A stretch of DNA of 59,323 bases from NCBI GenBank assembly GCA_021203775.1, contig JAJQAO010000024.1, positions 1 through 59,323 of the forward strand, in the 5' to 3' direction. The notes beneath the pieces were generated by a model, which searched no databases, was not told where the DNA came from, and was given only the letters and a program-made list of their open reading frames with translations. Source of the DNA: Phascolarctobacterium sp. (GTDB lineage: Bacteria > Bacillota > Negativicutes > Acidaminococcales > Acidaminococcaceae). Every line of letters begins with the position of its first letter. The first letter of the stretch is position 1. The position numbers and the translations under genes were made by a program. Below, piece after piece: positions 16,884 through 20,569 of this stretch.

Positions 16884-17000
16884 TATTAAAGCTTAAAACT
16901 TAAAACTGTATATTATATATTATACAGTATTTTGCGTGAAGAAAAAGTAAATTTGCCATTGGAAATTTTAAATACAGACCGAACTGGAGGTTTTTGTTAA

Positions 17001-17867
17001 ATGAGTGAAAATATTGTATTGATTGACGGCGAGATTATTCCTGAAGATGAAGCTTTTGTCAGTGTAAAGGACAGAGGATATAATTTTGGCGACGGTGTAT
17101 TTGAAATAGTGCCTGTCTACAACGGACGCTGCTTCGGCATTCTGCCCCACATGAACAATCTTTTCGATTATGTCATTCAGACCAAGATACCTGCCGTTTA
17201 TACTATTGAAGAACTGGTGGAATTTCATGAGCTCCTGCTGGAAAAGACGGGATTTAAGGACTGTGAGATTTATACACAGATCACCAGGGGATATGGCACC
17301 TACGGCCTGCAGCATCCTGAAAAAAGCATTCCTGCCCTTATGATGTTCGCTATGCCTGTGGACAGGGAAATGCTGAAAGGTAAACGCGCTACCGGTATTA
17401 ATCTTATCACGGAAAAAGATGTGCGCTGGCAGCGCTGTGATATTAACAGTCTTAACAGATTACCTGAAATTATGGCTAGACAGAAAGCCTGTATAAGCAA
17501 TGCTTTCGATACTTTGTTCGTGCGTGATGGGAAAATTACGGAGACAACGGAAGCAGGGTTCTTTATTTTTAAAGATGATGTTCTTTGGACGCATCCGGAG
17601 AATAACCTGATTCATAAAAATATTACGGCCAGACTGCTGCGTGAGCGGTTATGTCCGGATCTGCAGCTGCAGATTATAGAAAAGGCGTTTGACAAGGAAT
17701 TTGTCCTTAACGCGGAAGAAGCATTTATTTGCGGACCGCGCTGCGAGTTTCTGCCGGTTGTAAAAATAGACCGCAGTTTTGTCGGCAGCGGCAAACCCGG
17801 TCCGGTATCAGCAATGCTGCAAAAAGCATATTTGGATTTTGTCATGCTGGAATGTCCGGAAAAGTAA
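17001..17867 (+). CDS. Class IV aminotransferase homologue lacking the PLP lysine
   Basis: A 288-residue protein of the fold-type IV PLP family (D-amino acid aminotransferase, BCAT, PabC). Overall order is normal: GYNFGDGVFE near the start, YTQITRG, then VRWQRCDINSLNRLPEIMA. In D-amino acid aminotransferase and PabC the matching segment has Lys (CDIKSLN, IKHLN) as the Schiff-base residue; here it is Asn149 (AAC, 17445-17447). The substrate-carboxylate Arg and His that follow TRG in D-amino acid aminotransferase read Tyr and Leu here, and the phosphate-site TSTTSE reads CGPRCE. So it is probably not a standard transaminase. ATG follows CTGGAGG. Confidence 0.85.
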   Translation: MSENIVLIDGEIIPEDEAFVSVKDRGYNFGDGVFEIVPVYNGRCFGILPHMNNLFDYVIQTKIPAVYTIEELVEFHELLLEKTGFKDCEIYTQITRGYGTYGLQHPEKSIPALMMFAMPVDREMLKGKRATGINLITEKDVRWQRCDINSLNRLPEIMARQKACISNAFDTLFVRDGKITETTEAGFFIFKDDVLWTHPENNLIHKNITARLLRERLCPDLQLQIIEKAFDKEFVLNAEEAFICGPRCEFLPVVKIDRSFVGSGKPGPVSAMLQKAYLDFVMLECPEK

Positions 17868-17868
17868 A

Positions 17869-18372
17869 ATGAATAATAAATCTCTGGCAAGAGGGGCACT
17901 GATGCTTGCAGTTGCCGTCATTCTTCAGTCGCTGCGGCTGGTTTTGCCGCTTCCTCTGATAGTTACAACCTATTTTATTGGTATATTGGTTAATATGATA
18001 CTGGTGCTTACGTTTATGCTTAACGGCTTTAAGGCAGCACTGCTTCTGGCATGTCTTTTACCGGTATTCGCATATTTTGAAGGGCAGCTGCTGCTGCCTT
18101 TTTTGTTGCCGGTAGTAATATGCGGTAATGTGGTATTACTGTATCTTTTTTCCCGTTTTCAATATTCAAGGTTCCGCCTGGTTTTACCTTCACTGGGGAA
18201 GGTTCTTGTTATGTTTTGCAGTGCCTGTCTGGGATTATTTTTATTCGGGCTGATGGAATCGGCAGTATGCAAAGCTGTTCTGTATGCCATGAGCATACCT
18301 CAGTTTGTTACATCTTTGGCCGGGATTTGGGCGGCTGGAAGAATGTATGTATTACTGGAAAATAAAATATAA
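17869..18372 (+). CDS. Small integral membrane protein, possibly ECF S-component-like
   Basis: A 167-residue, almost wholly hydrophobic protein with about five predicted membrane helices. The start MNNKSLARGALMLAVAVILQ resembles the N terminus of ECF transporter substrate-binding (S) subunits, but no clear family signature is seen and no energy-coupling genes are near. ATG 17869 lies one base after the stop of the preceding gene, so coupled translation is likely. The reading frame extends upstream to 17779 inside that gene, which is less plausible. Confidence 0.7.
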   Translation: MNNKSLARGALMLAVAVILQSLRLVLPLPLIVTTYFIGILVNMILVLTFMLNGFKAALLLACLLPVFAYFEGQLLLPFLLPVVICGNVVLLYLFSRFQYSRFRLVLPSLGKVLVMFCSACLGLFLFGLMESAVCKAVLYAMSIPQFVTSLAGIWAAGRMYVLLENKI

Positions 18373-18500: not shown

Positions 18501-19385
18501 ATTTTAGAATTCAATGAAGTAACATTAGAGCAGAAAGATTTATTTGAAAAATATCTTTCTAAACCTTATCAGCGCGGCAGTGAATGCGCCTTTTCCAATC
18601 TTTTTGTGTGGCGTGATTGCTATCATATCTACTGGTGCATTGCCCGCGATTTTTTGTTAATCAAAGTTAACCGCAACAATGTTGACTTTTTCCTGCAGCC
18701 TTTCGGCGGCAGGGATGAAGATTTGCCTCTGCTTATAAATGACATAAGGGAAATTCATGAAGGCATTCCTTTCGAGATGCATGGTATTTACGAATGTACT
18801 AAAGAGCGTATGGAAAGGGTAATGCCCGGGATAGAGTTCATTGAAGACAGGGACACAAGCGACTATATATATTTGCGGGAAAATCTTGCAACATTAGCCG
18901 GCCGCAAGTACCATGGTCAGAAAAATCATTATAATACTTTTAAAAAGAATTATCCTGATTACGTTTATGAACCGATAACTGAAAGCAATATGGCTGAATG
19001 TCTGAGTTTTGGCGAAAAATGGTGTGATGACAGGCTTCATGAAGATCCCAGCATCACCTGTGAAAAATATGCAATCCAGCAGGCTTTCCATAACTTTGCT
19101 GCTTTGGAATTGCGCGGCGGTGCTATACGGCTGGACGGGAAAATAGAAGCCTTCAGTTTCGGAAGGAAAATCAACGAAGATACGGCAGTGGAACATGTTG
19201 AAAAAGCAAATCCTGAAATACGTGGCCTGTATGCTGTAATTAATAAGGAATTTGCCGCTCATGCCTGGGGTGATGTCGTTTATCTTAACAGAGAAGAGGA
19301 CATGGGACATGAAGGACTTCGCAGGGCCAAGGAATCTTACCATCCGGAATTCATACTTAAAAAATATAATGCAGTTTTCAGATGA
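18501..19385 (+). CDS. DUF2156 (MprF C-terminal-like) protein, ATT start
   Basis: A 294-residue protein related to the DUF2156/phosphatidylglycerol lysyltransferase C-terminal family (two GNAT-like folds). The family usually starts with LEF and then has a CxFxNLFxWRD motif; here ILEFNEVTLEQKDLFEKYL and SECAFSNLFVWRDCYHIYW are both present. These lie upstream of the first ATG/GTG (GTG 18606). The only well-placed start is ATT at 18501, 7 bases after GGAGG (18489-18493). RKYHGQKNHYNTF in the middle and PEFILKKYNAVFR at the end are also family-like. Substrate unknown. Confidence 0.75.
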   Translation: MLEFNEVTLEQKDLFEKYLSKPYQRGSECAFSNLFVWRDCYHIYWCIARDFLLIKVNRNNVDFFLQPFGGRDEDLPLLINDIREIHEGIPFEMHGIYECTKERMERVMPGIEFIEDRDTSDYIYLRENLATLAGRKYHGQKNHYNTFKKNYPDYVYEPITESNMAECLSFGEKWCDDRLHEDPSITCEKYAIQQAFHNFAALELRGGAIRLDGKIEAFSFGRKINEDTAVEHVEKANPEIRGLYAVINKEFAAHAWGDVVYLNREEDMGHEGLRRAKESYHPEFILKKYNAVFR

Positions 19386-19393
19386 GGTGCAAA

Positions 19394-20569
19394 ATGATTT
19401 TCCGAGTTGTGAATGAAGAACGCATGGAACAGGTCAGGGACCTCTGGAAATATTCTTTTGAAAAAGAGGATGACCCGTTCTTCCAGTGGTATTTTTCTGA
19501 ATACTGCGGCAAAGACAATACTGTTATCGGCGGATTTGATGAAAATGATAGCCTGCAGAACATGCTGCATCTGAATCCATATATGCTTCGGATACGCGGC
19601 TATGAGCAGCTTGTGCATTACATTGTGGGGGTGGCTACAGCGCCTGAATCCCGCGGACGCCGTATCTTCGGGGAACTTTTAAAGACTGCCTTTGAAGTCC
19701 TGCGTTCCCAGCAGTTTCCTTTTGTGCTCTTAATGCCGATCCATGCAGGAATTTATCTGCCGTACCAGTTCAGTTACTGCTATTACCGTCACAAATATGA
19801 TATGGATATCAAAATATTCCAGCCCGGAAAAACAGGTGAAGATTTGCCTGTAAGGCGGGAGACCGCAGATAAAGTTAAATTAAGCGCTATTTATGAGCGG
19901 ACAGTCAAAAACTGGAACGGAGTTCCCGTTCGCACTGATTTCCAGTGGAAGAAACTCCTGACCGTGCATGGGATGGAAAATGTACTGTGCGCCGTATGCT
20001 ATAGGGATACGGAAGCAGCAGGTTACATGCTGTACAAAGTTGCTGATGGTGTTTTCAATATTATTGAACTTTTAAGCTGCGACCAGGAGGTACGCAACAG
20101 ACTTCTGCAGTATGCCGCACAGCATAAAAGCGAAAGCACGCGGCTGACATGGCTGGCTGAGGAATGGGATAAAAGTTACCTTTACTTTAAGGATCAGAAT
20201 CTCAGCGGGGAGTTATATCCTTTCATGATGGCACGCTGCATTGATGCACGGCTGGCACTTTCTAAACTGCCTGTGCCTGACAATATCCCTGAAGACAGTA
20301 TTGTTCTGCTCTTGTCAGATAACATAATTGAGCGTAACAACCATCTTTTAAAATTAAAAACATCTGCGGGAAAACTGGATGTTGTAAGCACGATGGATGA
20401 TGAAGAAATTACAATGGACATGGGGGCATTTACGCAACTGTATTTCGGAACTTTTTCGGCCAGTGAGCTTTACGAAGCAGGAATGATACGGACAGGGAAC
20501 ATGGAAAAACTGGCGTTACTTGATAAAATATTCCCTAAATGCCGCAATTATATAAACGAGTATTTTTGA
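19394..20569 (+). CDS. Eis-like GNAT acetyltransferase
   Basis: A 391-residue GNAT-family protein of the Eis/SCP2-like type. The acetyl-CoA loop is in the first domain: IVGVATAPESRGRRIFGEL. A second GNAT-like fold and a C-terminal sterol-carrier-like domain (about 290-391) follow. ATG 19394 has GAGGTG just upstream. An ATG at 19382 overlaps the previous stop but lacks a Shine-Dalgarno. Eis relatives acetylate amines such as aminoglycosides or lysines; the substrate here is unknown. It pairs with the DUF2156 gene in one transcript. Confidence 0.82.
   Translation: MIFRVVNEERMEQVRDLWKYSFEKEDDPFFQWYFSEYCGKDNTVIGGFDENDSLQNMLHLNPYMLRIRGYEQLVHYIVGVATAPESRGRRIFGELLKTAFEVLRSQQFPFVLLMPIHAGIYLPYQFSYCYYRHKYDMDIKIFQPGKTGEDLPVRRETADKVKLSAIYERTVKNWNGVPVRTDFQWKKLLTVHGMENVLCAVCYRDTEAAGYMLYKVADGVFNIIELLSCDQEVRNRLLQYAAQHKSESTRLTWLAEEWDKSYLYFKDQNLSGELYPFMMARCIDARLALSKLPVPDNIPEDSIVLLLSDNIIERNNHLLKLKTSAGKLDVVSTMDDEEITMDMGAFTQLYFGTFSASELYEAGMIRTGNMEKLALLDKIFPKCRNYINEYF

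Follow-up and report, generated by a model that had tools for sequence, protein, structure and literature searches.

The window analyzed here, a stretch of 59,323 nucleotides of Phascolarctobacterium sp. DNA (contig JAJQAO010000024.1), encodes a homologue of D-amino acid aminotransferase (DAAT) in which the Schiff-base lysine is replaced by asparagine. The gene probably specifies a conserved pseudo-transaminase of the Acidaminococcaceae, kept after loss of the lysine and given a new ligand or chemistry. It is close to certain that the protein does not act as an ordinary PLP transaminase, and nearly certain that it is functional; its pocket likely serves a new ligand or chemistry. The gene, its putative ribosome binding site, and the codon in question are located as follows.

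17001 to 17867, + strand: coding sequence (288 amino acids) of a class IV aminotransferase homologue that lacks the lysine, a pseudo-D-amino acid aminotransferase, assigned by PF01063 match, AlphaFold fold, and 43 orthologous rows
16986 to 16990, + strand: Shine-Dalgarno-like GGAGG, ten bases 5′ of the ATG, from the sequence
17445 to 17447, + strand: codon AAC for Asn149 at the position of DAAT K145, the Schiff-base lysine, from the sequence, the DAAT alignment, and 43/43 Acidaminococcaceae rows

The frame at 17001 to 17867 (+) is open, and its 288-residue product, a homologue of class IV (fold type IV) aminotransferases, matches PF01063 well above the curated cutoff (E = 3e-26; 93 bits versus 28.5). 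Against TIGR01121, the D-amino acid transaminase equivalog, it scores below the curated cutoff (225.3 versus 277.45 bits), as do its orthologues in Phascolarctobacterium faecium (233) and Succiniclasticum ruminis (198). Between orthologues, dN/dS was 0.01 to 0.11 in the close within-family pairs for which it was computable; the lysine-less gene is thus under strong purifying selection. A sequence-only reading had judged the gene not to be an obvious pseudogene, and the open frame, the GGAGG, and the low dN/dS all bear this out.

Asn149 lies in the context C-D-I-N-S-L-N, which pairs with CDIKSLN of DAAT in a pairwise alignment that is gap-free nearby, placing the asparagine on K145. The window protein therefore lacks the Schiff-base lysine of functional class IV PLP-dependent aminotransferases, as the sequence-only reading had claimed, and no other lysine aligns there. 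To follow this position across relatives, orthologues were collected from the organism's own bacterial family, including the named genomes of P. faecium DSM 14760, Phascolarctobacterium sp. ET69, and S. ruminis DSM 9236 and many metagenome-assembled genomes (MAGs); the nearest relative, from a Phascolarctobacterium MAG, is 94% identical. With two Acidaminococcus class IV proteins set aside, asparagine is invariant at the K145 position in the 43 Acidaminococcaceae rows (Phascolarctobacterium, Succiniclasticum, and uncultured genera; 45 to 94% identity to the window protein), and none carries lysine; a separate family alignment gave Asn in 42/42. Both asparagine codons are in use (27 AAC and 18 AAT across all Asn rows). 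Homologues of the same order and class have lysine at this position, save for separate losses elsewhere in the Negativicutes, and in a maximum-likelihood tree the Acidaminococcaceae-type Asn rows form one clade (100/100 support) amid Lys rows.

The predicted structure of the lysine-less protein is that of an intact DAAT. The AlphaFold model has a pLDDT of 93.8 (54 sequences), and DAAT is its top structural match (Foldseek TM 0.92; VIA-align Z 38.6, rmsd 1.1 Å over 279 residues, 30% identity), in line with the earlier impression that the fold was otherwise undamaged. The order of elements is the same as in DAAT (PDB 1daa and 1a0g; TIGR01121), and the equivalent of Glu177 is kept; the window protein differs in that K145 and R50 are both Asn, R98 is Tyr, H100 is Leu, T241 is Pro, L149 is Arg, and S180 is Glu. 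Pocket-lining residues, taken from the alignment with DAAT and not from model coordinates, are listed below with their frequencies among the 43 family rows.

17157 to 17159, + strand: Asn53, replacing the PLP-phosphate Arg50; Asn in 35/43 rows, Arg in every Lys-type row
17301 to 17309, + strand: Tyr101-x-Leu103, replacing R98 and H100 of the carboxylate trap; Leu103 invariant (43/43)
17457 to 17459, + strand: Arg153 (DAAT L149), four residues past the lysine position, the place of the O3′ contact in a related transaminase (PMC12429042); Arg in 41/43 rows
17541 to 17552, + strand: Glu181 (equivalent to the PLP-N1 Glu177, kept; 43/43) and Glu184 (equivalent to Ser180; acidic in 43/43)
17613 to 17621, + strand: His205 and Asn207, replacing Leu201 and Gly203 in the alignment
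17736 to 17741, + strand: Pro246-Arg247, replacing the phosphate-binding Thr241 and the adjacent Thr242 in the alignment

The carboxylate trap of DAAT consists of Y31, R98, and H100 (PMC10003956); the window protein has Phe34, Tyr101, and Leu103 instead, so the canonical trap is absent, and R98 is replaced by Tyr or Phe in 41/43 rows. In a fold type IV enzyme, PLP is held by the lysine, a Glu at N1, a Tyr four residues past the lysine at O3′, and an Arg and two Thr at the phosphate (PMC12429042). Of these, the N1 contact survives throughout the family (Glu181, 43/43). The phosphate site does not: Arg50 has become Asn, T241 is Pro in 37/43 rows, and TSTTSE of DAAT reads CGPRCE in the window protein; Thr209, the counterpart of T205, is kept in 33/43. 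The replacement of the Arg/His pair after TRG and of the Thr/Ser in TSTTSE, both noticed in the first inspection of the sequence, thus stands, and the change of R50 to Asn53 is a loss beyond these. Nearby, L201 is His in 38/43 rows, G203 is Asn in 37/43, and T242 is Arg in 38/43. Because the replacements at the trap, phosphate, and neighboring PLP-site positions are themselves largely fixed, the pocket appears to have been rebuilt to a new use rather than to have decayed. S180 is Glu or Asp in all 43 family rows. An acidic residue at this position (Glu184 in the window, 17550 to 17552) recurs in both large Lys-less lineages of the Negativicutes, in 43/43 rows here and in all Ala rows of the second lineage, and Ser is found in all Lys rows of the same alignment; the shared residue is possibly convergent.

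That second lineage is formed by rumen Selenomonadaceae (Schwartzia-like), in whose DAAT orthologues the lysine is Ala, Gly, or Asn (L138, L140 to L150, L153, and L187 to L198; Ala in L142, L144 to L150, L153, and L187 to L196). Like the Acidaminococcaceae proteins, these are positional orthologues of Lys-type DAATs, but their rows form a clade apart from the Acidaminococcaceae Asn clade in the maximum-likelihood tree, marking an independent loss, and the PLP phosphate residues are mostly kept. The Ala proteins, 10 loci in one of the comparisons, retain R50, R98, T205, T241, and E177 and have Asp at S180; dN/dS among them was 0.03 to 0.06. The Selenomonadaceae Lys-less genes precede a carboxylase/decarboxylase alpha-chain-like gene (named by sequence), as most Lys-type relatives do, and not an S-component gene. 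One of the Ala proteins (L142) passes the TIGR01121 cutoff (278.8 versus 277.45 bits) and would therefore be called a D-amino-acid transaminase without having the catalytic lysine. In one further Negativicutes lineage (the identical MAG loci L046 and L127), Arg occupies the lysine position (CDIRTTNLL) and Cys replaces His100.

Outside the Negativicutes, a Variovorax paradoxus protein that resembles aminotransferases (PDB 7z79) shares with the window protein both the class IV fold and an Asn at the lysine position, which the N174K mutant 9j32 converts to Lys (LRLNSHSRLN versus LRLKSHSRLN in alignment). It belongs to another subfamily (22% identity to the window protein), with branched-chain type enzymes as its nearest relatives, and judging by the alignment it retains Arg and Thr at the phosphate but lacks the N1 Glu, the opposite of what the Acidaminococcaceae family shows. 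A class IV protein on a Yoonia plasmid (L221:238-1155), encoded beside an ornithine cyclodeaminase gene, has 7z79 as its closest PDB entry; it likewise carries Asn in place of the lysine and lacks the N1 Glu. Given the precedents in the Selenomonadaceae, the Arg lineage, and 7z79, lysine-less class IV proteins are already known as a kind, of which the Acidaminococcaceae family is a variant with its own residue pattern. Searches of a limited literature collection for lysine-less class IV transaminases found no paper on the Acidaminococcaceae family or on 7z79, and literature searches lent no support to the idea that succinate fermentation links the two Lys-less lineages.

The stop codon of the Asn gene is closely followed by a gene for a small membrane protein.

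17869 to 18372, + strand: six-helix membrane protein of 167 amino acids with the predicted fold of an ECF-transporter S component (RibU/PanT-like), from AlphaFold and VIA-align

The model of this protein (pLDDT 89.6) aligns with TmRibU at Z 15.5 and with PanT at Z 13.0, and the best 15 VIA-align rows (Z 9.5 to 15.5) are without exception ECF S components or transporter subunits akin to them, which places the modeled protein in the S-component fold. It shares this fold with RibU and PanT, but neither Pfam nor NCBIfam gave a hit for it, and searching the PDB with its sequence profile returned nothing; fold comparison alone gave matches. The S-component-like gene adjoins the Asn gene at 37/44 orthologous loci, with a 4-base overlap at several. 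It also stands beside Lys-type genes in other Negativicutes, overlapping in L030 and lying directly downstream in L128 and L133; in Pelosinus and others it lies near the Lys-type gene behind an MFS-like gene, and linkage is seen in L048 as well. Since Lys-type genes show this linkage, the pair is most likely older than the loss of the lysine, the idea that the S-component gene was gained along with that loss was rejected, and the shared synteny supports the view that the Asn genes are orthologous to the Lys genes. The S-component-like family occurs in 50/59 family genomes. The two genes also occur apart: genus g12 has the S component without the Asn gene, and three genomes (G015, G025, and G027) have the Asn gene without the S component.

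Across the 59 family genomes, many of them 95 to 100% complete, the Asn protein is the sole class IV aminotransferase wherever it is present, bar one genome (G027) with a second, Lys-bearing class IV protein. A heteromeric Lys-bearing class IV partner is thereby ruled out for all gene-bearing genomes but that one, and the idea was rejected. The gene is missing from genus g12 (9 genomes). Glutamate racemase is encoded in 57/59 genomes, so a D-amino acid aminotransferase is not required as the source of D-glutamate. Other familiar roles were also considered. A role as PabC (4-amino-4-deoxychorismate lyase) was rejected for want of a PabB partner: the gene is kept in many genomes without a chorismate-binding enzyme, including all six of genus g2, and elsewhere there is at most one such enzyme per genome with the Asn gene. 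The IlvE role was set aside as well, the gene persisting in genomes without IlvC (e.g., genus g2). A link to vitamin B6 supply was likewise rejected, PdxS being present in 13/59 genomes and no correlation being visible.

Several other accounts of the family can be weighed against this evidence. Decay of the gene or a sequencing error is virtually dismissed by asparagine in many species, the 43 rows from many independent assemblies, the use of both Asn codons, and dN/dS of 0.01 to 0.11. It is very improbable that another lysine took over the Schiff base. Lys191 and Lys255 are indeed invariant among the Acidaminococcaceae Asn proteins, but neither aligns near K145, and Lys191 is just as invariant in Lys-type homologues (13/13), which points to an older role; Lys178 is replaced by Arg in some members of the family. 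None of the invariant lysines is convincing as a substitute in the alignment.

Use of PLP without a Schiff-base lysine, with PLP or PMP held noncovalently through the Glu181 and Thr209 region as a cosubstrate or with an external aldimine stored, is unlikely. The invariance of Glu181 and the frequent retention of Thr209 speak for it, and some binding of PLP or vitamin B6 may persist through these residues; lysine-free PLP binding is plausible for the Selenomonadaceae Ala proteins, which keep Arg50, Thr205, Thr241, and Glu177. The Acidaminococcaceae proteins, however, have lost both Arg50 and Thr241 (the latter mostly to Pro), and loss of one contact to the phosphate reportedly impairs the binding of PLP (PMC12429042). 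Quite unlikely, too, is a scaffold or regulatory protein with a ligand-free pocket, for example, one that pairs with the neighboring membrane protein or with some metabolic enzyme. Pseudoenzymes often serve as scaffolds or regulators, and the S-component-like gene directly downstream at most loci would fit such a partnership; yet the same linkage at Lys-type genes, the occurrence of either gene alone, and the gathering of conserved polar substitutions at active-site positions all count against it.

Largely fixed substitutions, strong purifying selection, and the fact that most genomes have no class IV partner with the lysine thus narrow the reading to a rebuilt pocket. The family would have started from a Negativicutes DAAT encoded near an ECF S-component-like gene; loss of the PLP lysine on the line leading to the Acidaminococcaceae would then have left a pseudo-transaminase, which was retained. 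With the fold kept, the internal aldimine could no longer form, and neither the PLP phosphate nor the substrate carboxylate would be held in the usual way. The residues now largely fixed at the old active site (Asn149, Arg153, Glu181, Glu184, His205, Asn207, and Arg247) would form a polar pocket whose most likely role is to bind a different small metabolite, the protein being either an enzyme that works without PLP or a ligand-binding protein; we infer a homodimer with a new ligand and no PLP. The original suggestion of a noncatalytic PLP-fold binder, a regulator, or an enzyme with another chemistry agrees with the loss of the lysine, trap, and phosphate residues from a predicted fold that is intact, and the protein would have one of these roles. 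A more specific reading is put forward tentatively, as possible rather than probable: the protein would be an enzyme independent of PLP, or a sensor of a metabolite, built on a fold type IV scaffold by one of several separate lysine losses in this superfamily, and the acidic residue that both large Lys-less lineages of the Negativicutes have at Ser180 would reflect a new chemistry or ligand common to the two.

In the gut and rumen, Phascolarctobacterium and Succiniclasticum are common, and their DAAT look-alike is very probably not a D-amino acid transaminase; metabolic models that assign them this reaction would be wrong. Several separate, conserved losses of one catalytic lysine, each sparing different residues of the PLP site, amount to a natural experiment in how new function arises on a PLP fold.

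Farther downstream, at 18606 to 20569 of the window, lie a PF09924 (LPG_synthase_C) gene and, after it, a GNAT/SCP2 gene; next comes a gene for a 1258-residue phosphoribosylformylglycinamidine synthase-like protein. This block follows the Asn gene in several relatives. Acidaminococcaceae-type genes were also found in MAGs labeled Candidatus Dorea or Acholeplasmataceae (L139, L094, L098, and L101), whose labels or bins look wrong.
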